Source: Citreicella sp. C3M06 (lineage in GTDB: Bacteria; Pseudomonadota; Alphaproteobacteria; Rhodobacterales; Rhodobacteraceae). Taken from it: a DNA stretch of 38,204 bases. Shown here piece after piece: positions 12,344-29,407 of this stretch. The DNA lies in contig NZ_JAHKQA010000056.1 of assembly GCF_018860705.1 (NCBI RefSeq), forward strand, positions 141,453 through 179,656, given 5' to 3'. The position numbers were made by a program, and so were the translations under genes. Positions within the stretch are counted from its first letter, which is position 1. Each line of letters opens with the position of its first letter. Under the pieces are notes generated by a model. The model was not told the DNA's origin and ran no database searches. It saw only the letters and a program-made list of their open reading frames with translations.

Positions 12344-13045
12344 TCAGACCGACAGATAGGCATCGCGGATCTCGGGGTGGGCTTCGAGCTCGGCGAAGCT
12401 GCCGTCGAACTTCTTTTCGCCGCCTTCGATGATGATGGCGCGGTCGGCCACGGCGCGGGCGAAATGCAGGTTCTGTTCCGAGATCATCACCGTCAGCCCT
12501 TGGGCTTTCAGTTTCAGAATGGTGGCGGCCATCTGTTCGACAATCACCGGGGCGATGCCTTCGGAGGGCTCGTCGAGCAGCAGCAGCGCCGGGTTGCCCA
12601 TCAGGGTGCGGGCGATGGTCAGCATCTGCTGTTCGCCCCCCGACATGTGCTTGCCGCGGTTGGCGCGGCGCTCATCGAGGTTGGGGAAGATCTCGAACAG
12701 CTGGTCGGTGGTCCAGTGGGGGGCATCCTTGCGGGCGGGCTGGCGGCCGACTTCGAGGTTTTCCAGCACCGTGAGATCGGTGAAGATGCGCCGGTCTTCG
12801 GGCACGTAGCCGATGCCGCATTTGGCGACGCGAAAGGCGGGCTCGCCGACCAGCTCGCGGCCCTGAAAGGTCACGCCGCCCTTGCGCGGCCTGACCAGCT
12901 GCATCACCGATTTCATCGTGGTCGACTTGCCGGCGCCGTTGCGGCCCAGTAGCGCGACGACCTCGCCGCGGCGGACCTCGAAGCTGAGGTCCGACAGGAT
13001 GTGGGCCTTGCCGTAATAGCTGTGGATGCCTTCGACGCTAAGCAT
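12344..13045 (-). CDS. livF: branched-chain amino acid-type ABC transporter ATP-binding protein LivF
   Basis: A 233-residue ABC ATPase, one of the two nucleotide-binding subunits of a LivHMGF-type importer. Walker A is GRNGAGKST, the signature is MSGGEQQ, and Walker B is LLLLDEPSEGIAP. The text IGYVPEDRRIF and the ending are typical of LivF. The ATG at 13045 has AGGAGG upstream and overlaps the end of livG by 8 bp, showing translational coupling. The upstream extension of the frame lies inside livG and was discarded. It is the last gene of the minus-strand arm of the catabolic island. Substrates of this family go beyond leucine, isoleucine and valine and include aromatic acids, amides and urea, so the cargo is probably the compound degraded by the neighbouring enzymes. 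Confidence 0.92.
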   Translation of the reverse strand: MLSVEGIHSYYGKAHILSDLSFEVRRGEVVALLGRNGAGKSTTMKSVMQLVRPRKGGVTFQGRELVGEPAFRVAKCGIGYVPEDRRIFTDLTVLENLEVGRQPARKDAPHWTTDQLFEIFPNLDERRANRGKHMSGGEQQMLTIARTLMGNPALLLLDEPSEGIAPVIVEQMAATILKLKAQGLTVMISEQNLHFARAVADRAIIIEGGEKKFDGSFAELEAHPEIRDAYLSV

Positions 13046-13808
13046 GGGTTTCCTCCTTGAAGAGGGTTCCGCCGCCAAGATAGACCTCTTGCACCTGCGG
13101 GTTGTTGCGCACCTCGGTGGCGTTGCCATCGGCGATCAGCTCGCCCCGGTTCAGCACCATGATGTGATGGGAATGGGCAAAGACCACGTCCATGTCGTGT
13201 TCGGTGAACAGCACGCTGACGCCCTGATCGCGCACGATATCCGCCGTCAGCTGCATCAGCTCGATCCGGGCCGAGGGGGCCATGCCGGCGGTTGGCTCGT
13301 CCATCAGCAACAGGCGCGGTTTGTGGCACAGCGCGATGGCCAGTTCGAGCCGTTTGAGATCGCCGTAAGCCAGCACCGAGCAGGGGCGGTCGGCCTGATC
13401 CTGCATGGCGACAACGCCGAGCAGGTCCATCGCCTCGTCGCGGTAGAGTTTCCAGGCGCGCGGGCCGATGGTAAAGATCCGCCGGTGGTGCGACATCAGC
13501 GCCATCTGGACGTTTTCGATCACCGTCATCGACTGGTAGGTGCCGGTGATCTGGAAGGTGCGCCCCACGCCCTTGCGCCAGATGTCGCGGGGCTTGTGGC
13601 CAGTGATGTCCTTGCCGTCGAAGAACACCCGGCCTTCGGTGGGTTTGAGCTGGCCCATCAGCATATTGAAGCAGGTGGATTTGCCCGCGCCGTTGGGGCC
13701 GATCAGCGCCTTGAGCTCGCCCTGTTTGACGCTGAAGCTGACGCCGCCCACGGCAACGAAGCCATCGTAGCTTTTCTTGAGGTTTTCGACGCGTAGGATC
13801 TCGGTCAT
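13038..13808 (-). CDS. livG: branched-chain amino acid-type ABC transporter ATP-binding protein LivG
   Basis: A 256-residue ABC ATPase and partner of LivF. Walker A is GPNGAGKST, the signature loop is the LivG-type LAYGDLKRLE, Walker B is RLLLMDEPTAGMAP, and the switch His lies in LFTEHDMDVVF. The start ATG overlaps the stop of the permease gene in an ATGA arrangement (13805-13808), and its own end overlaps livF by 8 bp. All three are therefore translationally coupled. Confidence 0.93.
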   Translation of the reverse strand: MTEILRVENLKKSYDGFVAVGGVSFSVKQGELKALIGPNGAGKSTCFNMLMGQLKPTEGRVFFDGKDITGHKPRDIWRKGVGRTFQITGTYQSMTVIENVQMALMSHHRRIFTIGPRAWKLYRDEAMDLLGVVAMQDQADRPCSVLAYGDLKRLELAIALCHKPRLLLMDEPTAGMAPSARIELMQLTADIVRDQGVSVLFTEHDMDVVFAHSHHIMVLNRGELIADGNATEVRNNPQVQEVYLGGGTLFKEETHA

Positions 13809-15664
13809 CGGATGGTTTCCTCGTCGGTGTGGCGGATCTTGCGCCAGAGGGTCGACAGGGTGCCCACGATGCCTTCTGGCATCAGGATCACCACCGAGAT
13901 GATCACGAGACCCAGCAGCAGGCGCCAGTATTCAAGGCGGGTCAGCCAGTCTTCGACGCCGGTCATGAAGCCCGCGCCGACGACCCCGCCCGCCAGCGTT
14001 TTCACGCCGCCAAGGAAGACCACGATCAGCGCATCGAAGCTTTCGCCGATTTCCAGCACAGTCGGGAAGACCGAGCCCTTGGAGAAGACAAAGATTCCGC
14101 CTGCAAGCCCCGCCATGATGCCTGCAAGGCAGAAGGCGGCATATTGCACGCGCTTGACGTCGATGCCCATGGCCTCGGCCTGACGCGGGCTGTCGCGGCC
14201 AGCGCGCAGGGCGTAGCCAAAGGGCGAATGGATGACATGGCGCAGGAAGATGATGCCGCCGGTGCCAAGGATCAGGGTGAAGTAATAGAACGGCGCCGGG
14301 GCATTCAGCCATTCGGCGGGCCAGATGTTGACCAGCCCGTCATCGCCGCGCGTCACGTCGCGCCATTGGAAGGCGAGGCTCCAGACCAGCTGCGAGAACG
14401 CCAGCGTCAGCATGGCGAAATAGACCCCCGACAGCCGGATGCAGAACCAGCCGATGGCCAGCGCCAGCAGCCCGGCGGCGAGGGGGGCGAACAGGAAGGC
14501 CAGTTCCATCGGGGTGCCGGTATGGAACACCAGCAGGGCGGCGGCATAGGCGCCGCCTCCGAAGAAGGCGGCATGGCCGAAGCTGACAAGCCCGCCGGTG
14601 CCGAGAATGAAATGCAGGCTGGCGGCGAACAGCGCAAAGACGATCATGTCGACGATCAGCGTCAGCACGAATTGTTCGGCGAACAGCGGCACCAGCGCCA
14701 AGGCCAGCACGAAGGCAGAGGTCAGCGCGATGCCCTTGGGGCCATAGGGGCGGATCGGGCGTTCGGGGCTGCCGACCTGACCGTGCTCGCCGGCGGCCTC
14801 TTCGCGCCCGAGGATGCCCCAGGGGCGGATGATCAACACGATGGCCATGACCACATACATCAGCACCAGCGTCGATTGCGGCAGGTAGGTGACGCCAAAG
14901 ACGTTGAGCACCGAGATCAGCACGGCGGCGATGAAGGCACCGGGCAGGCTGCCCATGCCGCCGATGACGACGACCACGAAGACCTCGCCGATGATGTTGA
15001 AATCCATCAGCAGGTCGGCGCCGCCCTTGGGCAGTTGCAGCGCACCGCCAAGGCCCGCCAGCGCCGAGCCGAGGGCAAAGACGCCGGTGAACAGCCACGC
15101 CTGATTGACGCCAAGCGCGCCGACCATCTCGCGGTCTTGCGTCGCGGCGCGCACGAGGATGCCGAGCCGGGTCTTGGTGATGAGATACCACAGCGCAAAC
15201 AGGATGAAGGGGGTGATGGCGATCAGCACGATGTCGTATTTCGGCACCGGCTCGCCAAAAATGCGCCACACGCCGCGCAGGCCGGGGGCGCGGGGGCCAA
15301 GCTTGTCTTCGGCGCCCCAGATCATCAGCGCCAGATCCTGAATCACGAGGATCACACCAAAGGTGGCGACCAGCTGGAACAGCTCGGGTGCGCGGTAGAT
15401 CGGGCGCAGAACGATCATCTCGGTCAGCGCGCCGATCACCCCGACCGCAAGCCCGGTCAGCAGGATCGCGCCCCAGAAGCCGACATGGCCGGGCAGGATA
15501 TCCATCAGCGTGATGCCGATGAAGGCCCCGAGCATGTAAAAGCTGCCGTGGGCGAAGTTGACGATCCGCGTGACGCCGAAGATCAGCGACAGCCCGGAGG
15601 CGACGAGAAACAGGGCCGCCGCATTGGCGAGACCGGTCAGGAACTGGGCGAGGAAAAAGGCCAT
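13805..15664 (-). CDS. fused LivH-LivM permease of the branched-chain amino acid-type ABC transporter
   Basis: A 619-residue polytopic inner-membrane protein joining both permease subunits. Residues about 1-285 are LivH-like (GLSLIFGVTRIVNFAHGSFY near the N-terminus, ending RPWGILG). A hydrophilic linker (about 286-310) follows. The LivM-like half has HFILGTGGLVSFGHAAFFGG and the cytoplasmic loop GYALRAGRDSPRQAEAMGID, which contacts the ATPases. LivH and LivM are usually separate chains of about 300 residues each. I saw no frameshift or internal stop, so this is a true fusion, and I recall the arrangement from other Rhodobacteraceae. The ATG at 15664 has only a distant AAGGA. The 169-bp gap to livK holds repeat copy B. 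Confidence 0.9.
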   Translation of the reverse strand: MAFFLAQFLTGLANAAALFLVASGLSLIFGVTRIVNFAHGSFYMLGAFIGITLMDILPGHVGFWGAILLTGLAVGVIGALTEMIVLRPIYRAPELFQLVATFGVILVIQDLALMIWGAEDKLGPRAPGLRGVWRIFGEPVPKYDIVLIAITPFILFALWYLITKTRLGILVRAATQDREMVGALGVNQAWLFTGVFALGSALAGLGGALQLPKGGADLLMDFNIIGEVFVVVVIGGMGSLPGAFIAAVLISVLNVFGVTYLPQSTLVLMYVVMAIVLIIRPWGILGREEAAGEHGQVGSPERPIRPYGPKGIALTSAFVLALALVPLFAEQFVLTLIVDMIVFALFAASLHFILGTGGLVSFGHAAFFGGGAYAAALLVFHTGTPMELAFLFAPLAAGLLALAIGWFCIRLSGVYFAMLTLAFSQLVWSLAFQWRDVTRGDDGLVNIWPAEWLNAPAPFYYFTLILGTGGIIFLRHVIHSPFGYALRAGRDSPRQAEAMGIDVKRVQYAAFCLAGIMAGLAGGIFVFSKGSVFPTVLEIGESFDALIVVFLGGVKTLAGGVVGAGFMTGVEDWLTRLEYWRLLLGLVIISVVILMPEGIVGTLSTLWRKIRHTDEETIR

Positions 15665-15833: not shown

Positions 15834-17039
15834 TTATTCGGCGGGGCGCATCGCGGTGATGTCTTCGTCGCTGGGCATGTAGGGGGCCGGGTCCTTGTAT
15901 TCCCAGTCGACCATCACGCCCTTGCCATCTTCGACAGCCGTCGTTCCGACCCATGCGCCCAGCGTCGACTGGTTGTCGATGGCGCGATAGGTGAGCGCAC
16001 CGATGGGGGTGTCGTCGACGGTGAGGTCTTCGAAGGCCTGACGGATGGCGTCGCCGTCGGTGCTGCCGGCCGTGTTGATCGCGGCGGCGATGGATTGGGC
16101 GGTCATGTAGCCGACGAGGCTGCCGATCTTGGGGGTTTCGCCGGTGGCGGCCTCATAGGCGGCGACGAAGGTGCCGGCGGGGGTGCCCTCGTCAAAGGCA
16201 TACCAAGGGAAGCCGGTGACGTACCAACCTTCGGGGGCTTCGTCGCCCAGCGGTTCGAGGTATTCGGGCTCACCTGTCAGCAGGCCGTAGACAGAGCGCC
16301 CGTCGAACAGGCCGCGATCGCCGCCTTCGCGCACCAGCTTGGCAAGGTCGGAGCCGAAAGTGACGTTGTAGATGGCGTCGGGCTTGGCGCGTTCGATGGC
16401 CTGCACTTCGGCGCCGGCGTCGATGTTGAACAGGGCGGGCCATTGTTCAGCGACGAATTCAACCTCGGGCTTGAGCCGTTGCAGGTTTTCCTTGAACGCA
16501 TTCACCGCGTCCTGCCCATAGGCGTAGTTCGGCGCGATGGTGGCATAGGTGATGGCGTCGGTCTTGGCGGCCTCTTCGGCGAGCATCGCGGCCTGCACCC
16601 AGGTCGAGGCGCGCAGGCGGAAGGTCCAGGGGTTGCCGGAATTCCACACGAGGCTGTCGGCCAGCGGTTCGGACGCGAGGTAGAGATAGCCCTTTTCGGC
16701 AGCAAAGGACGATAGTGCGAGGCCGACGTGGCTGAGGATGGTGCCGGTGAACATCACCGCGCCTTCGCGGGTCATCAGCTCTTCGGCGATCTTCACCGCT
16801 TCGGCGGGGTCGCCCTGATCGTCGCGAAACACGAATTCCAGCGGCTTGCCCAGCACGCCGCCGTCTGCGTTGATTTCGCTCAGCGCCAGTTCGATGCCCT
16901 TTTTATAGGGTTCGGCGAAGGCGGCCATGCGCTTGTAATGGTTGATCTCGCCGACCTTGATGGTGTCTTGCGCCATGGCGGCGGGGGCGAGGGCTGTGGC
17001 GGCGATCATGCCAAGCACGGTGCGTCTGATGAGGGTCAT
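15834..17039 (-). CDS. periplasmic substrate-binding protein of the Liv-type ABC transporter
   Basis: A 401-residue type I periplasmic binding protein. The N-terminus MTLIRRTVLGMIAATALAPA has an Arg-Arg pair and a hydrophobic core with a likely AMA-QD cleavage site, so it is exported by Sec or possibly Tat. The mature part (IKVGEINHYKRMAAFAEPYK, LALSEINADGGVLGKPLEFV, DDQGDPAEAVKIAEELM) is typical of LivK-like receptors. It captures the transported compound for LivHM/GF. It lies 58 bp after the Rieske oxygenase gene and upstream of the permease. This placement suggests the ligand is the island's growth substrate rather than a branched-chain amino acid. Receptors made in excess of permease fit the repeat element that separates them. 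Confidence 0.9.
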   Translation of the reverse strand: MTLIRRTVLGMIAATALAPAAMAQDTIKVGEINHYKRMAAFAEPYKKGIELALSEINADGGVLGKPLEFVFRDDQGDPAEAVKIAEELMTREGAVMFTGTILSHVGLALSSFAAEKGYLYLASEPLADSLVWNSGNPWTFRLRASTWVQAAMLAEEAAKTDAITYATIAPNYAYGQDAVNAFKENLQRLKPEVEFVAEQWPALFNIDAGAEVQAIERAKPDAIYNVTFGSDLAKLVREGGDRGLFDGRSVYGLLTGEPEYLEPLGDEAPEGWYVTGFPWYAFDEGTPAGTFVAAYEAATGETPKIGSLVGYMTAQSIAAAINTAGSTDGDAIRQAFEDLTVDDTPIGALTYRAIDNQSTLGAWVGTTAVEDGKGVMVDWEYKDPAPYMPSDEDITAMRPAE

Positions 17040-17097: not shown

Positions 17098-18168
17098 TTA
17101 ATCGTGGTAAACAAATGCTGGAGAAGGGTCTGAGGCGATATCCTCGGTCCTTTCCAGTTCCAGAAGGTCGTTGATCCGCTTGCGATAGACAAGTGGCCCT
17201 TTGTCGATGGCGATGCGCAGCGGGCGGCGTTTTTGCGGGCGCAGCTCTTCGGCTTGAACCGCTTCGAGGATGGCCTTGTCCTCGGCGAAGGCGGTGCGGA
17301 ACATCGCGTCCATGCGCTCAGCGGCCTCGTCATCGTCGATGGCGGCGTTGCGGATGTGCATCCAGCGGTCGATGCTGTGGGTCTCGGTGACCGGTGTGAT
17401 GAAATGCAGCGCAAAGATGCGCACGCCCTGATTGCGGTCTTCCTCGCGGCACTGCTTTTCGGTCTCGATCGAGCCGAAGTCGATGACGGCGGTGCAGGGG
17501 GTGTAAAGATAATAGTAATGCCAGCGGTCGACATTGCCGGTGAACCCGCCAAACGCCTTGAAGAACCCGATGGGCTCGCCGTCGCGGATCCAGCGCCAGG
17601 CGACGATGGCCTCGCCTTCGGTCTGCACATGCACGGGGACGTTTTCCGATGCGGCGTTGCCCAGCGTGGTCGGGTGGACAAAGCTGACATGTGCCGGATC
17701 GACAAGGTTTTCCGCGACGTTGAGGTAATGCGATTCCAGATGCAGCGCATCGCCGTGGTGCACCGCCCAGTTCGGATCGCTGAATTCGGGCATGTCGAAG
17801 ACCTTTGCCGGGTCGGCCTTGTCCGGATCGCCCATCCAGATCCAGACGATGCCGTGCTTTTCCACGATGGGGTAGGCGTCGACATAGGCGGATTTGGGCA
17901 GGTTGGTCTGCCCCGGTACCCGCACACAGGCGCCCGAGCAATCGAAGGTCAGCCCGTGGTAGCCGCATTGCACCGTATCGCCGACGCGCTTGCCTTTGGA
18001 CAGCGGCAGCAGGCGGTGCGGGCAGCGGTCGTCCAGCGCGGCCACCGTGCCATCGGATTTGCGGAACATCACGACATGATCGCCAAGGAGAGTAAATCGG
18101 CGCAGGTCGTCGTCGATTTCCGTCGACCATGCGGCGACATACCAAGCGTTTCTTACGAATTGCGTCAT
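17098..18168 (-). CDS. Rieske non-heme iron oxygenase, VanA-like
   Basis: A 356-residue oxygenase subunit. The Rieske [2Fe-2S] ligands are C49, H51 (CPH), C68 and H71 (CGYH). The mononuclear iron site shows ENLVDPAHVSFVH, with H160 and H165 as ligands and D157 as the likely electron-bridging Asp. The overall form resembles vanillate O-demethylase VanA, in which the enzyme inserts oxygen or removes O- or N-methyl groups. The ATG at 18168 has AAGGAGA 8 bp upstream. It follows the second PF06684 gene by 17 bp and precedes livK, so it is within the operon. No matching reductase or ferredoxin gene is in the window, so electrons must come from elsewhere. A demethylase or ring-hydroxylase role on the island's substrate is inferred. 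Confidence 0.88.
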   Translation of the reverse strand: MTQFVRNAWYVAAWSTEIDDDLRRFTLLGDHVVMFRKSDGTVAALDDRCPHRLLPLSKGKRVGDTVQCGYHGLTFDCSGACVRVPGQTNLPKSAYVDAYPIVEKHGIVWIWMGDPDKADPAKVFDMPEFSDPNWAVHHGDALHLESHYLNVAENLVDPAHVSFVHPTTLGNAASENVPVHVQTEGEAIVAWRWIRDGEPIGFFKAFGGFTGNVDRWHYYYLYTPCTAVIDFGSIETEKQCREEDRNQGVRIFALHFITPVTETHSIDRWMHIRNAAIDDDEAAERMDAMFRTAFAEDKAILEAVQAEELRPQKRRPLRIAIDKGPLVYRKRINDLLELERTEDIASDPSPAFVYHD

Positions 18169-18185: not shown

Positions 18186-18758
18186 TTAGCGCAGACCGTC
18201 GGCGCCGGTGATCTGGTCCTGTGTCAGCCCGCCGACGCGGGGCAGCGGGCGGCCATGTTGTTGCAGCGCCACCGCAACGACGATTTCGCCGGGGCGCGGA
18301 GCGTCGTTGATGCGGATGCGCATGGCGTCGAAATGGCTGCGCACATAAGCGGCGTCCTTGTGGCCGAGCGGCACGTCGAGGATTTCCCCGGCGCGCCCGA
18401 TGGCTTTGGAGGAGGGCACCAGCGCCTTGCCACCGCCGATCACGGCGCGCAGCGGCGCGCCGAGTTTTGGGTGCAACAGCGCGGCGGCGTGTTCCAGTTC
18501 GCCGTTTTCACCGACCAGCGCGGCCTTGCCGTAGCCTTCGATGGGCGCGCCGCCAAGCGCGGCCAGCGCTTCGGTCCCAAGCAGTTCGCCAAGCGCCTCG
18601 CCCATCTCGATCAGCTCTGACAGGTCATCGGTGAACGCCCCGGCAAACGGGTTGGCGATCACCGCCGCCGCCAGCGCCCGGCGGGCTGGAGGCTGGACGG
18701 GGCGGCCCATCTCGCTGCGGACCTCTTCAGTCAGGGTGACGAGCTTGCGCAGCTTCAA
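18186..18758 (-). CDS. amino acid synthesis family protein (PF06684/DUF1185), second copy
   Basis: A 190-residue protein of PF06684, the family whose structures show a variant chorismate-mutase-like trimer fold with unknown activity. Conserved text shared with its neighbour includes EGYGKAALVGENGELEH, DVPLGHKDAAYVRSHFDA, NDAPRPGEIVV and the ending VGGLTQDQITGADGLR. The start is TTG at 18758, overlapping the neighbour's TGA stop as TTGA, with GAGGA about 9 bp upstream; translation is probably coupled. ATG at codon 17 would cut off the conserved N-terminal strand. Tandem paralogues suggest a hetero-oligomer or two steps on related intermediates. The function in this pathway is unknown. Confidence 0.85.
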   Translation of the reverse strand: MKLRKLVTLTEEVRSEMGRPVQPPARRALAAAVIANPFAGAFTDDLSELIEMGEALGELLGTEALAALGGAPIEGYGKAALVGENGELEHAAALLHPKLGAPLRAVIGGGKALVPSSKAIGRAGEILDVPLGHKDAAYVRSHFDAMRIRINDAPRPGEIVVAVALQQHGRPLPRVGGLTQDQITGADGLR

Positions 18759-19339
18759 CGGAGCCCGTCCTCGCCCTTGATCGCGTCCTTGGTCAGCCCG
18801 CCGATGCGGGCGTGGATACGCCCGCCGGTGGTCATCACCAGTACCAGCAGGATTTCATTGGGGCGGGGGGCATCGGGGATGCCGACCTCGATGGCGTCGT
18901 AATGGGTGCGCACGTAGGATGCGTTGGTGTGGGTCACCGGGATGTCGATCCGGGTGCCAGCCGCGCCGACCTTCTTGGTCGAGGGCACGATGGCGAGGCT
19001 TTTCTCGATGCTGTCGCGCATGGCGTAGCCGCCGGGCACGTGCCACAGCGCGCCATGTTCGATCTCGCCGTTGACGCCGGTGATCGCGCCCTTGCCGTAG
19101 CCTTCGACGACGCTTGCATCGCCGCCAAGCGCATCGATGCACATCTGCGCCATTTCAGCGCCCAGCGGTTCGAGATCCTTCATGAAGGGCGTGATGTCTT
19201 CGACGTAATCCCCGGCATAGGGGTTTTCGATCACCGCCATGGCGGCGGCGCGCTTGGCCGGGGTTTGCGGGGCGGGGCCGCCCTCGTGGAAGATGGTTTC
19301 GACCTGTACGAGGGTCTTGCGGACCTTGACCTCAGGCAT
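18755..19339 (-). CDS. amino acid synthesis family protein (PF06684/DUF1185), first copy
   Basis: A 194-residue paralogue of the next gene. Hallmarks are EGYGKGAITGVNGEIEH, HVPGGYAMRDSIEKS, VTHTNASYVRTHYDA, DAPRPNEILLVL and RIGGLTKDAIKGEDGLR. The ATG at 19339 was chosen over an upstream in-frame start because AAGGA lies 9 bp before it and the homology begins there. It overlaps the end of the UPF0280 gene by 8 bp and its stop overlaps the next start. To my knowledge a Ruegeria pomeroyi member of this family has a solved structure but no proven reaction. Position in the operon argues for a role in processing the heterocycle or its ring-opened product. Confidence 0.87.
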   Translation of the reverse strand: MPEVKVRKTLVQVETIFHEGGPAPQTPAKRAAAMAVIENPYAGDYVEDITPFMKDLEPLGAEMAQMCIDALGGDASVVEGYGKGAITGVNGEIEHGALWHVPGGYAMRDSIEKSLAIVPSTKKVGAAGTRIDIPVTHTNASYVRTHYDAIEVGIPDAPRPNEILLVLVMTTGGRIHARIGGLTKDAIKGEDGLR

Positions 19340-20195
19340 TGCGGAGTTCCTTTGTTTCAATCTGTTGCCCAAGGGCGATGCGGGTTCCGGCCAGCGCGAG
19401 GCAGGCGGCGCGGATCAGCCCGGAGGCGATGTAATCCTGCGCCAGCGCGCGCCCGGCGCCAAGGGCGGTGGTGATGTCATCCGGCGTCAGCGGGCCGACA
19501 TCGGTGGTGACAAGGCGCGGGCCAAGGTCGCTGTCGGGGGCCAGATCGCAGGCGCGTTGCCGCGTCACGGCGGGATGGCCGGGCAGATCCACCGCATTGG
19601 CGATCAGCGTCGCAGCTACATCGGCCAGCGCCGCGTCGCGGGCCAGCACGGTGACCGCGTCGGCGATGCCCAGCGAATGCGAGCGTCCGCGCCAGCCGCT
19701 GGTGGCGACGCCGCCGATGCCATCCTGCGGGCCGATCAGCGCGCGGGCGCCGGGGGCACGGGTCACCGGGTCTTCGCAGATCGCAAGGCGCAGCGGCGCG
19801 TCGCGGGTATACAGCGCGATGTCACCGCCGTTGTTGACATGGGCGCGGGTCAGCCCGTGGCCGGGCGGCAGCATTGCGGCCAGCAGATGATCGGCAACCG
19901 AGCCTGCCACCGCCGCCATGGGCGTCACAAACGCCGGGGCGAAAAGATCGGCGGCGCTTTGCATCCGGCGCGCCACGATGCCTTTCGGGGCGGGGCCGGT
20001 GGGGGCGCGCAGGCGGGGCAGTTCGGCGCTCAGCTCGGTCAGGATCGGCGCAAAGCCATCGCGGGCGCGCATCAGCGCCTTGTCCATCGCCTCTGCCGGG
20101 CCTTCTGCGGTGACGATCACGTCGATCGGCCCATGAGTCAGGCGCATCCGGCCACCGCTGGCCAATTGCATTTGGGGTCGCTCGAGAAAGCTCAT
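19332..20195 (-). CDS. UPF0280 family protein (ApbE-like superfamily)
   Basis: A 287-residue protein of the UPF0280 family, which shares the ApbE-like fold of FMN transferases. Recognisable text includes GPIDVIVTAEGP, VAGSVADHLLAAML, HVNNGGDIALYTR, the Gly-rich GIGGVATSGWRGRSHSLGIA and DAVTVLARDAALADVAATLI, where ApbE proteins bind FAD and metal. The ATG at 20195 overlaps the stop of the reductase gene as ATGA, and its own end overlaps the first PF06684 gene by 8 bp. Because the neighbouring reductase belongs to a family reported to hold covalent flavin, I infer that this protein attaches flavin to it. This is unproven. Confidence 0.85.
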   Translation of the reverse strand: MSFLERPQMQLASGGRMRLTHGPIDVIVTAEGPAEAMDKALMRARDGFAPILTELSAELPRLRAPTGPAPKGIVARRMQSAADLFAPAFVTPMAAVAGSVADHLLAAMLPPGHGLTRAHVNNGGDIALYTRDAPLRLAICEDPVTRAPGARALIGPQDGIGGVATSGWRGRSHSLGIADAVTVLARDAALADVAATLIANAVDLPGHPAVTRQRACDLAPDSDLGPRLVTTDVGPLTPDDITTALGAGRALAQDYIASGLIRAACLALAGTRIALGQQIETKELRNA

Positions 20196-21688: not shown

Positions 21689-21724
21689 TTCGCGGGCTCC
21701 ATCGTTTGGGGCTGGCAGGGTCAG

Positions 21725-21911: not shown

Positions 21912-21946
21912 TGAAAATGACCCAGCTGATCGCCCGGAGAGAGACC

Positions 21947-22771
21947 ATGACCCTGCACCGACCCGAATCGCTTGAAGACGCGCTTGCGCTGAGCGGCGGG
22001 GGCGCGGCGCTGCTGGCGGGCGGAACCGATCTGTACCCGGGCCTGCGCGACGGCGCGCCGCCGCCCGAGCTGATCGACCTGACGCGAATTGCCTCGATGA
22101 AGGGCATCACGCGCAGCGACAGCGGCTGGCGCATTGGCGGTGCGACCACATGGACCGCTATCGTAAAGGCCGATCTGCCGCCGATGTTCGACGGGCTGAA
22201 GGCCGCCGCGCGCGAGGTGGGATCGGTGCAGATCCAGAACGCCGGAACGCTGGCGGGCAACCTGTGCAACGCCTCGCCGGCGGCCGACGGCGTGCCGGCG
22301 CTGCTGGCGCTGGACGCGTCGGTCGAGCTGGCCTCGGCGGGCGGCACGCGGGTGCTGCCGCTGGAGGGGTTCATCCTTGGCCCGCGCCGCACCGCGCTTG
22401 AACCGGGCGAGATCCTGTCGGCCATTCATATCCCCGATGCGCCGGGGCAGGGCGCGTTCCTCAAGCTGGGGGCGCGCAAGTATCTTGTGATCTCGATCGC
22501 CATGGTCGCGGCCACCGTCACCACCCGCGCAGGCCGTATCGAAACCGCCCGCATCGCCGTTGGCGCCTGTTCGCCCGTCGCCCGCCGCCTGAGCGCGCTC
22601 GAGACGCAGCTTGTCGGGGCGACGCAGGACGAGGTCTTTGCCCGCACCGGCGCCTATGCTTTTGACGAGCTTTCCCCCATCGACGACGTCCGCGCCAGCG
22701 CGGGCTACCGCCTTGACGCGGTGACGGCGCTGGTCGCCCGCACCGTTGCTAATGCCATGGAGACCCTCTGA
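21947..22771 (+). CDS. xanthine dehydrogenase family FAD-binding subunit
   Basis: A 274-residue medium subunit (CoxM/XdhB type) of a molybdenum hydroxylase. The FAD site is seen as LLAGGTDLYPGLR (about residues 22-34) and AGTLAGNLCNASPAAD (about 98-113). It passes electrons from the [2Fe-2S] clusters to NAD or another acceptor. The ATG at 21947 was chosen because GGAG lies 7 bp upstream; two earlier in-frame ATGs (21911, 21917) overlap the operator. Its stop shares a base with the next start (TGATG), so expression of the two subunits is coupled. First gene of the plus-strand arm. Confidence 0.92.
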   Translation: MTLHRPESLEDALALSGGGAALLAGGTDLYPGLRDGAPPPELIDLTRIASMKGITRSDSGWRIGGATTWTAIVKADLPPMFDGLKAAAREVGSVQIQNAGTLAGNLCNASPAADGVPALLALDASVELASAGGTRVLPLEGFILGPRRTALEPGEILSAIHIPDAPGQGAFLKLGARKYLVISIAMVAATVTTRAGRIETARIAVGACSPVARRLSALETQLVGATQDEVFARTGAYAFDELSPIDDVRASAGYRLDAVTALVARTVANAMETL

Positions 22772-25470
22772 TGTCGCTCGACGCCCCGCACGGCCATATC
22801 GGTTTCACCCTGAACGGCGACAGCGTCACCGTTGCCACCTCGCCCACCGCCCGCCTGTCCGAGGTGCTGCGCGAAAGCGCAGGGGCCAAGGACGTCAAGA
22901 TCGGCTGCAACGCCGGCGATTGCGGCGCCTGCACCGTGCTGCTCGACGGCGCGCCGGTCTGCGCCTGCATGATCGCGGCGGGGCAGGCACAGGGCGCGGT
23001 GATCGAAACACAGGTCGGGCTGGTGGCCGATGATCCGCACGCGGCAAGGCTGGCGCAAAGCTTTCAGCGCCATCAGGCGGCGCAATGCGGCATCTGCACG
23101 CCGGGAATGATGGTGTCGGCGGTGGCGCTGCTGCGTTCTGGCGCGCCGCTGAGTTCCGAGGCGGTCGAGGATGCGCTGGGCGGCGTGCTCTGTCGCTGCA
23201 CCGGGTATCGCAAGATCATCGACGCGGTGCTGGACGCATCGGGCACCGCGCCGCTGTCCACCGGGGGCGTTGGCGCGCCCATCGCGCGGCTGGATGGTTG
23301 GCCCAAGGTCAGCGGCACGGAGCGTTTCGGCGATGACGTCGCCCCCGAGGGCGCGCTGCTCGCCCGGCCCATCCGCGCGCCTTATCACCGCGCTGCCTTC
23401 CGCTTTGGCGATCTTGATGCCTTTCGCGATGCGCGTGGGCTCGAGGTCATTCTGACCGCCGCCGACATCCCCGGCGAGAACCGCTTTGGCGTCATCCCCG
23501 GCTTCGAGGACCAGCCGATGCTGGCCGAGGGCGAGACCCGGTTCAAGGGCGAGGCGGTTGCCTGCGTTGTCGGCACCCCCGAGGCCATCGCCGCCATGCC
23601 CGCCTTTCCGGTGACATGGGAAGAGCTGCCGTCAATCACCACGCCGAAAGGCGCGGACAAGGCGGCACTGCTGCACGCGGACCGGGCCGAAAACGTCATG
23701 TGCCGGGGTTATGTCGCGCGCGGCGACGCGGGCGCGGCGCTGGCCAGCGCGCCGCACGTCGTCAGCGGCGATTTTTCCACCGGCTTCATCGAACATGGCT
23801 ATATCGAACCCGAGGCCGCCTCGGCGGTGCGCGTTGGCGATCGGCTGGAAATCCGCTGTTGCACGCAGGCACCGTTCATGAATCGCGACGGCATCGCCGG
23901 GCTGATGGGGCTTGCGCCCGATCAGGTGCGCATCCTGCCCACGGCGGTCGGCGGCGGCTTCGGGTCGAAGCTGGACCTGACGGCGCAGCCCTTTGTGGCG
24001 CTGGCGGCGTGGATCACCGGCAAGCCGGTGCGCATCGCCTTCACCCGGACCGAAAGCCTGATGGCCTCGACCAAGCGCCACCCCTCCGAGGTGCATATGG
24101 AGATCGCCGCCGATGACGACGGCCATATCCTTGGCGCGCGCTTCGACGGGGTGTTCAACACTGGCGCCTATGCCAGCTGGGGGCCGACCGTGGCGAACCG
24201 GGTGCCGATCCATGCCTCGGGCCCGTATCGCACGCCCAATTACGAGGCCCGCAGCGCTGGCATCCACACCAACACCGCGCCTGCCGGGGCTTTCCGGGGC
24301 TTTGGCGTGCCGCAATCGGCGGTGGCACAGGAACAGCTGTACGACATGATGGCGGAAAAGCTGGGCATCGACCGGCTGGAGTTCCGCTTGCGCAACGCGC
24401 TGCGCAACGGCGAGCCCACCGTCACCGGGCAGGTGTTCGAACGCGGCATGGCCATCGACGCCTGCCTCGAAGCGCTGAAGCCCGCGTGGGAAACGGCGCT
24501 GGCCGACTGCGCGGCGTTCAACGCAGAACACTCGGGCGTCAAGCGCGGCGTCGGCGTGGCGTCGGGTTGGTATGGCTGCGGCAACACCTCGATCTCCAAC
24601 CCCTCGACCATCCGCGCCGGGATCACCGCCGCGGGCGAGCTGTTCCTGCATCAGGGCGCGGTCGATATCGGGCAGGGGTCCAACACCGTGATCACCCAGA
24701 TCTTTGCGCAGGCGCTGGGTGTGTCCGTCGCCGATGTCTCGCTGATCGGCGCCGACACGGATATCACGCCGGACGCGGGCAAGACCTCGGCCAGCCGCCA
24801 GACCTATATCTCGGGCAATGCCGCGCGACTGTGTGGCGAGGCGCTCAGGGCGCAGATCCTGCGCCTTGGCAATGTGTCGGATACGGCGGTCATCTCGTTC
24901 GACAACGGCCTGACGCTGAGCGATGGCGACGCCACGGTTCAGGTGCCGCTGTCCGGCGATGGTTACGTGCTGGAGGCGGTGGAGAGCTACGATCCGCCCA
25001 CCACGCCGCTGGACGAGAACGGGCAGGGGGACCCTTATGCGGTCTTTGGCACCGCCGCGCAGCTTTGCGTGGCCGAGGTGGATCTGGCGCTTGGCACCAC
25101 CCGGTTGATCCGCATGGTTGCGGCGCATGATGTCGGCAAAGCCATCAACCCGCTGCTGGTCGAAGGCCAGGTCGAAGGCGGCGTCGCGCAGGGCATCGGC
25201 CTTGCGTTGATGGAAGAATTCCTGCCCGGGCGCACCGAGAATCTGCACGATTACCTGATTCCCACCATTGGCGATGTTCCCCCCATCGACACGCTGATCA
25301 TCGAAAGCGGCGATGCGCATGGGCCGTACGGGGCCAAGGGGCTGGGCGAACATTGCCTGATCCCGACCGCCCCCGCCGTTCTCAACGCGATTGCCCATGC
25401 CACGGGCGCCCGCATCCACCACCTGCCCGCAACGCCCGCGCGCCTGCGGGCCGCGATCAAGGCGCTTTGA
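22771..25470 (+). CDS. fused [2Fe-2S] and molybdopterin-binding subunit of a xanthine dehydrogenase-type hydroxylase
   Basis: An 899-residue fusion of the small FeS subunit and the large Mo subunit. Residues 1-150 carry two [2Fe-2S] clusters: the plant-type site with C46, C51, C54 and C66, and the helical site with C106, C109, C141 and C143. From about residue 165 the Mo domains follow, with GFIEHGYIEPEAA, VGGGFGSK and GAFRGFGVPQ; GAKGLGE holds the catalytic base Glu860. Such enzymes hydroxylate a carbon next to a ring nitrogen using water. The CO-dehydrogenase loop AYxCSFR is absent. Domain order FeS-Mo with a separate FAD chain differs from the common three-chain layout. With an Hnr-like reductase in the regulon, an N-heterocyclic acid is a likely substrate class. 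Coupled to the FAD subunit upstream and hyuA downstream. Confidence 0.93.
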   Translation: MSLDAPHGHIGFTLNGDSVTVATSPTARLSEVLRESAGAKDVKIGCNAGDCGACTVLLDGAPVCACMIAAGQAQGAVIETQVGLVADDPHAARLAQSFQRHQAAQCGICTPGMMVSAVALLRSGAPLSSEAVEDALGGVLCRCTGYRKIIDAVLDASGTAPLSTGGVGAPIARLDGWPKVSGTERFGDDVAPEGALLARPIRAPYHRAAFRFGDLDAFRDARGLEVILTAADIPGENRFGVIPGFEDQPMLAEGETRFKGEAVACVVGTPEAIAAMPAFPVTWEELPSITTPKGADKAALLHADRAENVMCRGYVARGDAGAALASAPHVVSGDFSTGFIEHGYIEPEAASAVRVGDRLEIRCCTQAPFMNRDGIAGLMGLAPDQVRILPTAVGGGFGSKLDLTAQPFVALAAWITGKPVRIAFTRTESLMASTKRHPSEVHMEIAADDDGHILGARFDGVFNTGAYASWGPTVANRVPIHASGPYRTPNYEARSAGIHTNTAPAGAFRGFGVPQSAVAQEQLYDMMAEKLGIDRLEFRLRNALRNGEPTVTGQVFERGMAIDACLEALKPAWETALADCAAFNAEHSGVKRGVGVASGWYGCGNTSISNPSTIRAGITAAGELFLHQGAVDIGQGSNTVITQIFAQALGVSVADVSLIGADTDITPDAGKTSASRQTYISGNAARLCGEALRAQILRLGNVSDTAVISFDNGLTLSDGDATVQVPLSGDGYVLEAVESYDPPTTPLDENGQGDPYAVFGTAAQLCVAEVDLALGTTRLIRMVAAHDVGKAINPLLVEGQVEGGVAQGIGLALMEEFLPGRTENLHDYLIPTIGDVPPIDTLIIESGDAHGPYGAKGLGEHCLIPTAPAVLNAIAHATGARIHHLPATPARLRAAIKAL

Positions 25471-27558
25471 ATGCTGGATAACTCTGAAAAGGCCCCGCAG
25501 ATGACCGACAGCACCCTTACCGGCACCTTCGCGGGCATCGACGTGGGCGGCACCTTTACCGACCTTGTCTATTACGACAGTCGCGCCAGCAGCGTGAAGC
25601 TGGCCAAGGTGCCGACCACGCTCGACAACCAGTCGCGCGGTGTTCTGGATGCACTCGATGCGGCCGGTGTCGATGCCGCCGCGCTGGATCTGATCGTGCA
25701 CGGCACCACGACCACGACAAACGCCGTGCTGGAACGGCAATTGTGCAAGACCGGGCTGGTCACCACCATGGGCTTTCGCGACGTGCTGGAACTGGGCCGC
25801 CGCACCCGCCCCCATGCCTATGGCATGACCGGGCAGTTCCGCCCGCTGATCCCGCGCGATCTGCGGCTTGAAGTACCCGAGCGGATGCTGGCAGATGGCG
25901 CGGTCTACACGGCGCTGGACGAGGAGGCGCTGCGAGCGGCGCTGGCGGAGTTGGTGGACAAGGGCTGCGAGGCGCTGGTCATCCACTTCCTGCACTCTTA
26001 CGCCAATCCCGCGCATGAGCAGCGCGCCGGGCAGATCGCCCGCGAGGTCTGGCCCAATGGCAACATCACCATGGGCCATGCGCTGATTTCGGAATCGCGC
26101 GAATACGAACGCGGCGTGACGGCGGCGGTGAACGCCTCCGTGCAGCCACTGCTGCGGCGCTACGTGGAACGGCTGGCCGACAAGCTGTCGGAGCGCGGCT
26201 ATGATCGCGACCTTCTGGTGATGAACGGCAACGGCGGCATGGTCTCGGCCCGCGTGGTGGCGGATGAGGCGGCCAAGACGGTGATGTCAGGGCCAGCTTC
26301 GGGCGTGATGGCGGCGGCTTACACGGGCCGACGCGCGGGCATCCCCGATCTGCTGACCTATGACATGGGCGGAACCTCGACAGACGTGGCGATGATCCGG
26401 GGCGCCGATCCCGCCGTCAGCCACGAGATCGAGGTGGAATACGCCATGCCGATCCACGTGCCCATGGTGGATGTGCGCACCGTCGGCGCCGGCGGTGGGT
26501 CGATCGCGCGGGTTGATGCGGCAGGGCTGTTGCAGGTCGGACCGGACTCGGCAGGATCGACGCCGGGGCCGATCTGCTACGGCAAGGGCGGCACGCTGCC
26601 GACGATCTCGGATGCCAACATGCTGCTCGGGAGACTCAATCCCGACCGGCTGAACACCGGGGCCGGAGGCGTATCGCTGGACACCATCCGCGAGGCGTTT
26701 GCGACGCTGGGCGCAAAGCTGGGGCTTGGGGCCGACGAGGCCGCCGCCGCCGTGCTGCGCATCGCCAATGCCAAGATGGCGGATGCAGTGCGCATGGTGT
26801 CGATCTCGCTCGGCGAAGACCCGCGCGATTTCGCGCTGTTTGCCTTTGGCGGCGCGGGGCCGCTGCACGCCTGCGCCATCGCGCGCGAACTGGGCGTGCC
26901 GCGCGTTCTGGTGCCGGCCCGGCCCGGCATCACCAACGCGCTCGGCTGCATCGTGGCCGATCTGCGGCATGATTACGTCGCCACGGTGAACAGGCCGCTG
27001 GATGCCTGCGACATGGACGAGGTTCATGCGCTGTTCACCAAGCAGGTCGCCGATGGGCGCGCTGCCATCGCCCGCGAGCGGGTCGAGATCGCCGAGGAAA
27101 AGATCGCCTTCTCGGTCGAGATGCGCTTCATCGGCCAGACTCACCTGCTGCGCGTGCCGCTGCCCAGCGATGCGCCCACGCGGGATGAACTGCAGGCGCT
27201 GTTCGAGGAGGCGTATTTCAAACGCTTTCAGGTGCGCCTGCCAGAGATCCGCGCCGCATTGGTCAATGTCGCGACATCGGTGATCGGTCGCCGCCCCGAG
27301 ATCGACCTTGCCGCGCTGATCGATGCCGCCGGGCGCAAGGCGACGCTGGCCGAGGCGCAAAGCGGCACGCGCCGCGTTTTCTTCGATGGCTGGTGCGAGG
27401 TGCCGGTCTATTGGCGCGACCATCTACCTCTGGATGCCGCGCTGCATGGTCCGACCATCGTGGAACAGATGGATTGCACGCTGGTGCTGGAAGTGGGCGA
27501 CACCGCCACTCAGGACGCCGATGGCAATCTGATCGTCACCGTGGGAGCGCAGACATGA
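25471..27558 (+). CDS. hyuA: hydantoinase/oxoprolinase family protein, subunit A (HyuA)
   Basis: A 695-residue ATP-binding subunit of the N-methylhydantoinase/5-oxoprolinase/acetone carboxylase superfamily. FAGIDVGGTFTDLVYYD opens the actin-like ATP site, followed by VHGTTTTTNAVLE, TYDMGGTSTDVAMIRG, VGAGGGSIARVD and FGGAGPLHACAIARELG. The family uses ATP to activate and cleave cyclic amides, working with a B subunit. The start codon directly follows the stop of the Mo subunit gene and has AAGG 8 bp upstream. ATG 25501, ten codons later, also has AAGG at 8 bp and is an equally good start. I infer ATP-driven opening of the hydroxylated and reduced ring; 5-oxoproline or hydantoin are alternative substrates. 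Confidence 0.9.
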   Translation: MLDNSEKAPQMTDSTLTGTFAGIDVGGTFTDLVYYDSRASSVKLAKVPTTLDNQSRGVLDALDAAGVDAAALDLIVHGTTTTTNAVLERQLCKTGLVTTMGFRDVLELGRRTRPHAYGMTGQFRPLIPRDLRLEVPERMLADGAVYTALDEEALRAALAELVDKGCEALVIHFLHSYANPAHEQRAGQIAREVWPNGNITMGHALISESREYERGVTAAVNASVQPLLRRYVERLADKLSERGYDRDLLVMNGNGGMVSARVVADEAAKTVMSGPASGVMAAAYTGRRAGIPDLLTYDMGGTSTDVAMIRGADPAVSHEIEVEYAMPIHVPMVDVRTVGAGGGSIARVDAAGLLQVGPDSAGSTPGPICYGKGGTLPTISDANMLLGRLNPDRLNTGAGGVSLDTIREAFATLGAKLGLGADEAAAAVLRIANAKMADAVRMVSISLGEDPRDFALFAFGGAGPLHACAIARELGVPRVLVPARPGITNALGCIVADLRHDYVATVNRPLDACDMDEVHALFTKQVADGRAAIARERVEIAEEKIAFSVEMRFIGQTHLLRVPLPSDAPTRDELQALFEEAYFKRFQVRLPEIRAALVNVATSVIGRRPEIDLAALIDAAGRKATLAEAQSGTRRVFFDGWCEVPVYWRDHLPLDAALHGPTIVEQMDCTLVLEVGDTATQDADGNLIVTVGAQT

Positions 27559-27584: not shown

Positions 27585-27677
27585 CCGGGGGTTTCACACC
27601 CCCGGACCCCCGTGGAGTTTACCCGGCAAGATGAAGTTGGGGCGCGGCGCCTGTCTTCATCTTGCCAGATAAACTCC
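27585..27677. repeat. dispersed structured repeat, copy C, with an inverted second core
   Basis: The copy lies between hyuA and hyuB. A hairpin CCGGGGGT-TTCAC-ACCCCCGG (27585-27605) is followed by the conserved core at 27614-27636 and an inverted core at 27655-27677, matching at 21 of 23 positions around an 18-nt GC-rich loop. RNA of this region would fold into a long hairpin. The two differences would be C-A mismatches in the plus-strand RNA and G-U pairs in the minus-strand RNA. Confidence 0.78.
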
Positions 27678-27730
27678 CGCCGGAGGCTGCCCGGCCGCCG
27701 GACATCCCTTGCCAACACCGGAGTAGCGCG

Positions 27731-29407
27731 ATGAGCCTCGATCCGATTACCCTCACCGTCATCCAGTCGGGCTTGCAGCAGGTCTGCGACGAGATGGACC
27801 TGTCGTTTTCGCGCGCGGCGTTCTCGCCGGTGATCGCCGAGGCGAATGACCGCTCGGACGGGATCTATTCCGCCGAAGATGGCAGTCTGATCGCGCAAGG
27901 CTCGATGGGGCTGCCGGTGTTCGTGGGGGTGATGCAATATTCCACCGCCACGCTGATTTCGATGATGGCAGAGGGCAAGGTGGCGGCGCCCAAGCCGGGC
28001 GATATCTATATCGTCAACGATCCCTATCTTGGCGGAACGCATCTGATGGATGTGCGCTTTGCCATGCCGGTCTGGCGGGATGGCAAGATTTTTTGCTGGC
28101 TGTCGAATACCGGGCATTGGCCCGATACCGGCGGCGCGGTGCCGGGGGGCTTTTCGGCCTCGGCGACGGCGGTCGAGCAAGAGGGGCTGCGGTTGCCGCC
28201 GGTGCGGCTGTTCAAGGGCGGCGAGCTGGATCAGGAGATTTATTCCATCATCTGTTCCAACATCCGCGTGGCCGATCAGCGCATCGGCGACGTCAAGGCG
28301 CAGGCGGCAGCGCTTTATGTCGGGGAGGCGCGTCTGACGCGGCTGCTGGATCGCTATGGCGATGACACCGTCAGCGCGGCTATTGCCGAGTTGCGGGTCC
28401 GGGCGGCGGATCAGATGCGGGTGCAGATCGGGCAGATCCCCGTCGGCACCTATCGCAGCACCGCCTATATCGACAGCGACGGGGTGGTGAACGAGCCGCT
28501 CGAGATCAAGCTTGCGGTGACAAGCGACGGCGAAAGCCTGACCTTTGATTTCGACGGGACCAGCCCGCCGTGTCAGGGGCCGATGAATTCGGTGATCGCG
28601 ACGACGCTGTCTTCGGTCTATCTAGCCATGCGGCATATCTTTCCAGACGTTCCGATCAGCGCCGGGGCGTTCGAGCCGCTGAAGGTGATCCGGCCCGAGG
28701 GCACCTTTCTGGACGCGCGCTATCCGCGCCCGGTGTCGGGCTGCGCCGCCGAGGTCAGTCAGCGCATCGCCGAGGCGGTGTTTGCCGCGCTCATCCAGGC
28801 GCTGCCGGGCAAGGTCAGCGCCTCGCCCGCCGGGTCTTCGGGCAATTTTGCGCTGGGCGGCGAGGTTCCCGAAACCGGGCAGGCCTATGTGATGTATCAG
28901 ATTTCGGGCGGCGGCTATGGCGGTTATGCTGGCGGCGACGGCATTTCCAACGGCTGTTCGACCATTGGCATATCCAAGGCGCCCCCCGTCGAGATCATGG
29001 AGCAGCAGTTTCCCGTGCTCTATCACCGCTATGCCCTGCACGAGGGGTCTGGCGGCGCGGGCGAGCATCGCGGCGGCTTTGGCCTTGATTACGAGGTCGA
29101 GCTGCGCGCGGGTCATGCGCGGGCGAGTTTCGTGATGGATCACGGCCGATTTGGCCCGCAGGGGGCGCTTGGCGGCAAGGATGGCGCGAAGAACCGGGTG
29201 CTGGTGACGCGCGGCGGCGAAAGCTTTGTGCCCGAGCATCTGAGCAAGGCGCAAGACATCCAGCTGGTTGCGGGGGATCGGGTGCGGGTTTGCACGCCCG
29301 GTGGCGGCGGTTTCGGCGATCCGTCGAAACGCGATCCGGCGCTGGTGGCTGAAGACGTGCGGCTTGGGCGCTATACCCCCGAAGAGGCCAAGGCGCTGTT
29401 CGGCTAA
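27731..29407 (+). CDS. hyuB: hydantoinase B/oxoprolinase family protein (HyuB)
   Basis: A 558-residue catalytic partner of HyuA. Text typical of the family includes LDPITLTVIQSGLQQVCDEM, ANDRSDGIYSAEDGSL, DIYIVNDPYLGGTHLMDV, the HW pair in SNTGHWPDTGG, GSGGAGEHRGGFG and the ending PGGGGFGDPSKRDPALV. ATG 27731 was chosen: GGAG lies 7 bp upstream and homology starts there, while an earlier in-frame start lies in repeat copy C. It is separated from hyuA by 172 bp holding that repeat, which is unusual for subunits of one complex. The stop overlaps the end of the convergent DUF1289 gene by 4 bp, so no room exists for a separate terminator. Confidence 0.92.
   Translation: MSLDPITLTVIQSGLQQVCDEMDLSFSRAAFSPVIAEANDRSDGIYSAEDGSLIAQGSMGLPVFVGVMQYSTATLISMMAEGKVAAPKPGDIYIVNDPYLGGTHLMDVRFAMPVWRDGKIFCWLSNTGHWPDTGGAVPGGFSASATAVEQEGLRLPPVRLFKGGELDQEIYSIICSNIRVADQRIGDVKAQAAALYVGEARLTRLLDRYGDDTVSAAIAELRVRAADQMRVQIGQIPVGTYRSTAYIDSDGVVNEPLEIKLAVTSDGESLTFDFDGTSPPCQGPMNSVIATTLSSVYLAMRHIFPDVPISAGAFEPLKVIRPEGTFLDARYPRPVSGCAAEVSQRIAEAVFAALIQALPGKVSASPAGSSGNFALGGEVPETGQAYVMYQISGGGYGGYAGGDGISNGCSTIGISKAPPVEIMEQQFPVLYHRYALHEGSGGAGEHRGGFGLDYEVELRAGHARASFVMDHGRFGPQGALGGKDGAKNRVLVTRGGESFVPEHLSKAQDIQLVAGDRVRVCTPGGGGFGDPSKRDPALVAEDVRLGRYTPEEAKALFG

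Follow-up and report, generated by a model that had tools for sequence, protein, structure and literature searches.

What does the divergent catabolic gene cluster in a 38,204-nucleotide stretch of Citreicella sp. C3M06 DNA (contig NZ_JAHKQA010000056.1, positions 141,453 to 179,656; henceforth the window) break down, and do its genes serve a single pathway? One arm of the cluster encodes an Hnr-like 6-hydroxynicotinate reductase, a UPF0280 protein, two PF06684 proteins, a Rieske oxygenase and a Liv-type importer, and the other a two-gene molybdenum (Mo) hydroxylase and the subunits HyuA and HyuB of a predicted ATP-dependent lactam hydrolase. All genes named in a preliminary description of this DNA were confirmed at the same positions and in the same orientations, and the cluster proved larger by one gene, encoding a MarR-family regulator at 11695–12141. 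We consider it probable that the cluster specifies a reductive nicotinate-type pathway acting on nicotinate or a close derivative, in which HyuAB stands in for the enamidase and a Rieske/importer entry module has been added.

HyuAB replaces the enamidase of sister clusters

HyuA (25471–27558, plus strand; Pfam Hydantoinase_A, 297 bits) and HyuB (27662–29407, plus strand, start near 27725; Pfam Hydantoinase_B, 524 bits) each contain their domain at full length. HyuA matches a PDB chain labelled N-methylhydantoinase with 455 bits, HyuAB stays under the NCBIfam caprolactamase cut-off (494 versus 1000 bits), and the likely reaction is the ATP-dependent opening of a lactam. A related cluster of Sulfitobacter pontiacus encodes an amidohydrolase that matches the solved enamidase 2vun with 360 bits, the next PDB match reaching only 32 bits. 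Because sister clusters thus encode an ortholog of the Eubacterium barkeri enamidase (2vun), the cluster family is tied to the nicotinate pathway.

We compared 178 loci: the window, 40 chosen family loci, 17 of 26 plasmid matches, 80 loci from a scan of named genomes (the best 80 of 593 confirmed Hnr stretches) and 40 class or phylum loci. Gene content was counted in the 149 loci whose sequence extends 8 kb or more to either side of Hnr. HyuAB alone occurs in 53 of them and enamidase alone in 64; none has both, and 32 have neither. Among representatives with less than 80% Hnr identity (n = 57), the corresponding numbers are 14, 22, 0 and 21. Since most loci stop about 10 kb from Hnr, 40 chosen Hnr-positive genomes were searched whole. 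A HyuA ortholog, defined as having at least 66% identity to window HyuA, was present in 34 and enamidase in 6, with no genome carrying both or neither. The 34 comprise 13 members of the window's genus, 12 others with the gene in the cluster, and 9 of the 11 genomes that have neither opener near Hnr; the other two of these 11 carry enamidase elsewhere in the genome. No HyuA ortholog was found in the six enamidase genomes (best match 41% identity, or no match at 1e-150). The identical enamidase query that was positive in 6 of the 40 Hnr-positive genomes found none in 26 Hnr-negative genomes, two of which hold a HyuA relative (E ≤ 1e-150) of 43 and 47% identity. The window genome itself (96% complete) has no enamidase at E ≤ 1e-30.

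The swap pattern shows that HyuAB replaces the enamidase of sister clusters. With HyuAB in this position, the window cluster would be a variant of the reductive nicotinate pathway and no plain member of it. The exchange is clean and apparently repeated among related bacteria; in a quick Hnr tree (93 rows) at least 8 changes of ring opener are counted, besides 6 in the first-step enzyme and 5 in the Rieske gene, though the counts are rough because many forks are weak. A literature search at listing level, which is no proof of absence, returned no report of HyuAB replacing enamidase. Some Rhodobacterales loci (L126, L131 and L160) carry a divergent enamidase lineage, 50–53% identical to the references.

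A shared operator and a BpsR-like regulator

The divergent start region is bounded at either end by a copy of a palindrome, TTCGTTTGTATACGAA next to hnr (21725–21740, overlapping the first codons of the longest hnr frame) and TTCGTTTGCATACGAA next to the FAD/Mo genes (21896–21911). Scanning the window at up to 3 mismatches gave 5 matches, a number that counts both strands and one shifted match, against a shuffle mean of 0.18. In its strict form, TTCGTn6ACGAA, the palindrome was found at 29 places across the 178 loci (3.58 Mb; mononucleotide shuffle mean 1.0), with 20 occurrences in window-type clusters (the window's two included) and 9 in others, and all 29 fall within a zone from 400 bases upstream to 60 bases inside the start of a matched cluster gene. 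At up to 3 mismatches, 315 of 351 matches lie in such zones, which make up 17.9% of the sequence (shuffle mean 14.5; some palindromes are counted twice in shifted register), and 123 of the 178 loci have an operator near a cluster gene. The genes nearest to the 315 are hnr (90), FAD (87), fpr (43), ena (32), hyuA (21), nicA (20), livK (14), marR (6) and Rieske (2). Since operators precede the genes of all of them, the two ring openers and the two types of first-step enzyme would seem to form part of a single regulon.

We infer that the palindrome is bound by the MarR protein (11695–12141, minus strand; Pfam MarR), which matches PDB 2nnn with 124 bits and the BpsR structures 6PCP and 6PCO with 86 and 85 bits. 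According to the accessible part of PMC6837509, BpsR binds 6-hydroxynicotinate through Tyr15, His23, Arg26 and His32. The same source notes their absence from Pseudomonas putida NicR, so not every such regulator can be expected to have this pocket. The window protein has Tyr15, Phe23, Arg26 and Asn32 at these positions; it does not carry the full BpsR pocket, and the likeness claimed is one of working in the same way. Among 133 cluster-linked MarR proteins (the best match from each locus having one), Tyr15 is present in 132 and Arg26 in all 133. His32 occurs in 100 of them, 23 others having Asn there and 10 Ala; at position 23, Phe or Tyr predominates and His is found in 8. We predict from these residues that the window MarR senses a 6-hydroxynicotinate-type inducer.

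Proposed hydroxylation and reduction of the ring

The Mo hydroxylase is composed of an FAD subunit (21911–22771, plus strand; Pfam FAD_binding_5 and CO_deh_flav_C) and a fused [2Fe-2S]-molybdopterin subunit (22771–25470, plus strand; Pfam MoCoBD_1/2, Fer2 and Fer2_2), the proposed C6 hydroxylase. Among single PDB chains, aldehyde oxidoreductase 1sij scores best against the fused protein (368 bits). Nicotinate dehydrogenase 3hrd is split over several chains, three of which cover the fused protein piecewise (238, 200 and 117 bits), and their summed score of 554 bits, a rough sum of separate matches, is the highest of the listed solved enzymes. An FAD-Mo or NicA/NicB-type hydroxylase is found in 137 of the 149 loci, and in part of the clusters NicAB takes the place of the FAD-Mo enzyme (NicB in 27 of the 149).

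Hnr (20192–21745, minus strand, start uncertain) has no match in Pfam or NCBIfam (E ≤ 0.001) or PDB (E ≤ 1) and is named by its identity to plasmid proteins, most of which are annotated as 6-hydroxynicotinate reductase. Its CxxCxxxCx9C motif at residues 40–57 is present in all 177 of the 178 rows that reach this region. The E. barkeri pathway, said to have been described by Alhapel and colleagues in 2006, comprises Ndh, Hnr and enamidase, and its Hnr reportedly yields the 1,4,5,6-tetrahydro-6-oxo lactam. Protein family and gene context support reductive pyridine-type chemistry for the window cluster in part. Thus, where the preliminary description had proposed one pathway with HyuAB for enamidase, the swap pattern and the operator bear out the single regulon and the place of HyuAB, and the reductive chemistry is borne out to that partial extent.

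UPF0280 and PF06684 proteins

UPF0280 (19332–20195, minus strand; NCBIfam PRK04334.1-2, 321 bits against a cut-off of 290) is present in 147 of the 149 loci and appears to be a distant relative of ApbE. Against the Pfam ApbE model, 35 of 46 UPF0280 members match at E ≤ 10, the best at 2.2e-5 and the window member at 0.053, which is under the cut-off (13.5 versus 25.6 bits); no other Pfam family is matched by more than two of the 46. A hidden Markov model of local ApbE proteins matched 18 of 46 UPF0280 members and none of 34 PF06684 members at E ≤ 0.01, and profiles revealed no relation between UPF0280 and PF06684. A narrow profile-profile comparison of UPF0280 with ApbE was weak (probability 0.5%), and Hnr has no clear ApbE flavin-attachment motif, the only candidates being GSAT at 247 and SGVT at 399. 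As E. barkeri Hnr carries a covalent flavin, UPF0280 may be the flavin transferase for Hnr, which we offer as a guess and nothing firmer.

The two PF06684 proteins (copy 1 at 18755–19372, start probably near 19339, Pfam 237 bits; copy 2 at 18186–18758, 227 bits; both minus strand) belong to a family that accompanies all cluster variants, with at least one gene in 139 of the 149 loci. Copy 1 matches PDB 3byq and 2qtp, both labelled uncharacterized. The many invariant polar and charged residues over 34 aligned rows suggest an enzyme that works on a common acidic intermediate.

The Rieske oxygenase and its LivK lineage

The VanA-type Rieske non-heme iron oxygenase (17098–18168, minus strand; Pfam Rieske and VanA_C) has intact Rieske and mononuclear-iron motifs and adjoins the gene of the LivK-type binding protein (15834–17039, minus strand). 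LivK matches PDB 3i45 with 451 bits; the ligand of 3I45 is probably nicotinic acid, a point not used as evidence here. The importer further comprises a LivF-type ATPase (12344–13129, true start probably near 13045; Pfam ABC_tran), a LivG-type ATPase (13038–13808; Pfam ABC_tran and BCA_ABC_TP_C) and a 619-residue permease in which LivH and LivM are fused (13805–15664; two BPD_transp_2 stretches in one protein), all on the minus strand. A quick tree of 78 cluster LivK proteins and 3i45, which leaves out 25 loci with another LivK type and 75 without a LivK match, contains a clade of 34 rows (SH-aLRT 100) that has the Rieske gene in 29, compared with 2 of 44 cluster rows outside it. This clade includes HyuAB and enamidase clusters alike, and the fused LivHM permease is found in 31 of 32 Rieske loci. 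It is thus with the Rieske gene, rather than with the ring opener, that the LivK lineage is associated. This suggests a shared imported substrate, and we propose an optional entry module made up of the Rieske enzyme and this LivK lineage.

The candidate that we favour for this import is trigonelline (N-methylnicotinate). The true substrate of the same pathway would then be the methylated compound, which the Rieske enzyme would N-demethylate to nicotinate and to which the LivK lineage would be tuned. We hold this as a tentative reading, somewhat less likely to be right than wrong; it is a special case of the nicotinate-type pathway, so that the two likelihoods overlap. In addition to the linkage of LivK, LivHM and Rieske genes, it draws on the demethylases among solved Rieske relatives and, from the available part of PMC8269262, on the occurrence of trigonelline in marine samples and the better growth of Ruegeria pomeroyi on trigonelline than on homarine. 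The same part of PMC8269262 has the known trigonelline route begin with ring opening by TgnA/TgnB, which speaks against this reading, as does the absence of a Rieske gene from five window-type clusters (L048, L056, L058, L059 and L061). The closest solved Rieske enzyme is dicamba O-demethylase (159 bits), with the N-demethylase NdmA at 72 bits, which likewise counts against it. In a wider picture, marine bacteria would commonly degrade methylated nicotinate by an aerobic route that reduces the ring, uniting Rieske demethylation of trigonelline, hydroxylation and reduction by the Mo enzyme and Hnr, repeated HyuAB-enamidase exchange and a dedicated UPF0280 flavin transferase that makes Hnr active; as a whole, this seems to us unlikely.

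Substrate class and alternative readings

According to the preliminary description, nothing in the sequence fixes the substrate. This can be revised: a 3-carboxypyridine is indicated by the enamidase orthologs, the exchange for NicAB in part of the clusters, the regulator pocket resembling that of BpsR, the operator that the clusters have in common and the score of nicotinate dehydrogenase against the Mo protein when summed over its chains. Homarine or picolinate, as a 2-carboxypyridine, is an improbable alternative. The homarine operon is said to be named homABCDER, and the genes for FAD, Mo, Hnr, UPF0280, PF06684 and MarR are six as well. Homarine is described as an abundant marine metabolite in the accessible text of PMC8269262, its concentration having been overstated according to a correction; it is drawn down quickly by R. 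pomeroyi (PMC12817926, in part), and a conserved catabolic pathway for it was published in 2026, as cited in the available portion of PMC13390433. Against a 2-carboxypyridine stand the orthology of the enamidase to the nicotinate pathway, the NicAB swaps and a MarR pocket that fits contacts to the carboxylate and 6-hydroxyl of 6-hydroxynicotinate. Moreover, Mgd is said to take part in homarine breakdown (PMC13390433, same portion), and a partial search found no match to the SoxB/Mgd-like gene of the window in 40 loci or beside HyuB in 11 same-genus flanks.

Another N-heterocycle, be it a different pyridine, a pyrimidine or a lactam, would make the resemblance to nicotinate systems ancestral only. 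The FAD-Mo enzyme lacks a decisive assignment and the window MarR pocket is partly changed, as this reading would have it, but Hnr, UPF0280, PF06684, HyuAB and the operator-like sites are common to NicAB-containing clusters, and the changed pocket (Asn32) occurs in window-type clusters that have NicAB too; we give such a substrate an equally small chance. Least likely of all, and by our estimate quite improbable, is that an unrecognised enzyme opens the ring, HyuAB being a passenger or having a different lactam as its substrate: the HyuAB families are broad and further HyuA relatives exist in most genomes of the genus sample, but only this HyuA ortholog tracks Hnr, it is complementary to enamidase in 40 of 40 genomes, and hyuA is the nearest gene for 21 of the 315 operator-like matches.

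Several observations weigh against the nicotinate-type pathway with HyuAB for enamidase. The window MarR lacks two BpsR pocket residues (His23 is replaced by Phe and His32 by Asn), and the pocket register was taken from the HMMER range and not from a printed alignment, in cluster-linked MarR proteins with no unrelated control. No single 3hrd chain beats 1sij (at most 238 versus 368 bits), and for the Mo protein no NCBIfam model passes its cut-off. A ferredoxin-NADP reductase gene, present in 46 of the 149 loci, is absent from the window cluster. An operator near a cluster gene is missing from 55 of the 178 loci, and of the 32 loci with neither ring opener close to Hnr, whole-genome search settled 11, while 21 were seen at the locus only. 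The trees are quick and have many weak forks. Finally, all loci were selected by similarity to Hnr and are thus uninformative on clusters without it.

For the reductive nicotinate-type pathway that we prefer, the following course may be envisaged. The Liv-type importer would take up the substrate, and the two-gene Mo hydroxylase would oxidise the carbon beside the ring nitrogen to give a 6-hydroxynicotinate-type compound. Hnr, to which UPF0280 would attach flavin, would reduce the ring to the 1,4,5,6-tetrahydro-6-oxo lactam, which HyuAB would open with ATP in the place of enamidase. The PF06684 pair may then act on the open-chain product, where we place it because it is present with both ring openers. 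The BpsR-like MarR repressor would sense the 6-hydroxy product and control both arms via the two palindromic operators, and the Rieske enzyme would provide an optional entry, perhaps by N-demethylation of trigonelline.

Distribution and limits of the cluster

Hnr is present in 13 of 20 genomes of the window's genus (the window's own included), and orthologs of HyuA and the Mo subunit occur in exactly those 13, with identities of 83–88% (Hnr), 82–91% (HyuA) and 75–84% (Mo subunit) to the window proteins and 100% in the own genome. For these three genes, the co-occurrence survey suggested by the preliminary description therefore came out in favour of a single unit, beyond what chance would give. 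The neighbours on the right are not part of it: in 11 same-genus stretches reaching about 11–12 kb beyond HyuB, tblastn (E ≤ 1e-15) found no match to the RuvX, CcmH-like, Sox or superoxide dismutase (SOD) neighbours in any of the 11. A unit made of the cluster and the flanking soxBDAG-like genes was rejected on this ground. An island defined by composition was likewise rejected, as G+C content is practically the same inside the cluster (66%) and in the left (66%) and right (65%) flanks. It is thus context, namely co-occurrence in the genus and the absence of the right-hand neighbours from relatives, and not base composition, that delimits the module. The cluster is probably a self-contained, mobile catabolic regulon.

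Plasmids of Pseudosulfitobacter and Sagittula carry close relatives of the whole cluster, from which we judge the window bacterium to be probably marine; core genes are also found on a Comamonadaceae plasmid. Hnr matches occur in 103 of 295 sampled family genomes (63–86% identity, with one decayed copy at 53%), 70 of 385 class genomes (two through very short matches only) and 33 of 398 phylum genomes (one through a very short match only). The best 80 of the 593 Hnr stretches include Rhizobium, Bradyrhizobium, Afipia, Roseovarius, Ruegeria and the gammaproteobacterium Granulosicoccus, and a MarR relative is encoded in 124 of the 149 loci. In Granulosicoccus-type Gammaproteobacteria (L129, L146, L155 and L162), Hnr follows FAD and Mo, with the remaining cluster genes upstream; the presence of the cluster genes in these bacteria hints at transfer between classes.

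Individual loci show further variation. L083 (G033:C28) is a decayed cluster copy whose Hnr match contains four TAG and one TAA codons, with partial FAD, Mo and Hyu matches, and the Hnr match at G339:C1:2969817-2971198 runs in two adjacent frames, indicating a frameshift or sequencing error. In Sulfitobacter sp. S190 (L096), the cluster adjoins the photosynthesis genes ppsR, bchF and bchB on a 146-kb plasmid. To the left of the window cluster lie genes for a pyruvate carboxylase-type protein (1268–4711, minus), a UvrD-type helicase (4875–8042, plus) and a SIMPL-domain protein (10855–11625, plus), as well as a 906-residue open frame (8059–10779, minus) with no Pfam match at E ≤ 0.001, the C-terminus of which weakly matches NCBIfam PilP (9.7e-6, under cut-off). 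Heterotetrameric sarcosine oxidase-type genes occupy 31521–37388 (SoxB 644 and SoxA 1266 bits, over cut-off; SoxG 73 bits, under) and are followed by an Fe/Mn SOD gene (37506–38105). The window contains no tRNA and no Rfam family reaching its gathering score.

Comparison with known systems

In the window, the Mo hydroxylase, the predicted Hnr-type reductase and the predicted lactam-opening step correspond to those of the reductive nicotinate pathway of E. barkeri. Unlike that pathway, the window has HyuAB for enamidase and fuses FeS and Mo domains in one protein; it adds UPF0280, PF06684, Rieske, Liv importer and MarR genes, and the hosts are probably aerobic. A reductive route in an aerobe had seemed notable in the preliminary description, but one is already reported for aerobic Azorhizobium caulinodans and thought likely for strain SG-6C in the accessible part of PMC3511419, which describes three routes onward from 6-hydroxynicotinate. 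By the same text, SG-6C degrades nicotinate with transient appearance of 6-hydroxynicotinate, and its hnr cluster encodes two conserved unknown proteins and a putative nicotinate transporter. The A. caulinodans/SG-6C cluster, as far as that description goes, thus resembles the window in Hnr, an ABC importer and the two conserved proteins, which we would guess to be UPF0280 and PF06684, whereas the window has the FAD-Mo enzyme, HyuAB and Rieske. An Afipia locus (L133) combines NicAB, Hnr, UPF0280, PF06684, LivK, MarR and enamidase.

The plasmid cluster of S. pontiacus (L088) shares FAD, Mo, Hnr, UPF0280, two PF06684, MarR, Rieske and LivK with the window, together with a permease matching the fused LivHM, but has enamidase and a ferredoxin-NADP reductase and no HyuAB within its stretch. 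With the HyuAB/N-methylhydantoinase/caprolactamase family the window shares two full-length subunits; it differs from caprolactamase in its score under the cut-off and in its proposed substrate, a lactam of the nicotinate pathway. Against the literature, checked at listing level, the additions to the known picture are the exchange of HyuAB and enamidase, an operator that the clusters have in common, the module of Rieske enzyme and LivK, and the proposal for UPF0280. The comparison shows an exchange between enamidase and an unrelated ATP-dependent ring opener. It also offers testable functions for UPF0280, PF06684 and one subgroup of HyuAB, none of which is well understood, and suggests a way in which bacteria of sea and soil use nicotinate-type compounds from plants and phytoplankton.

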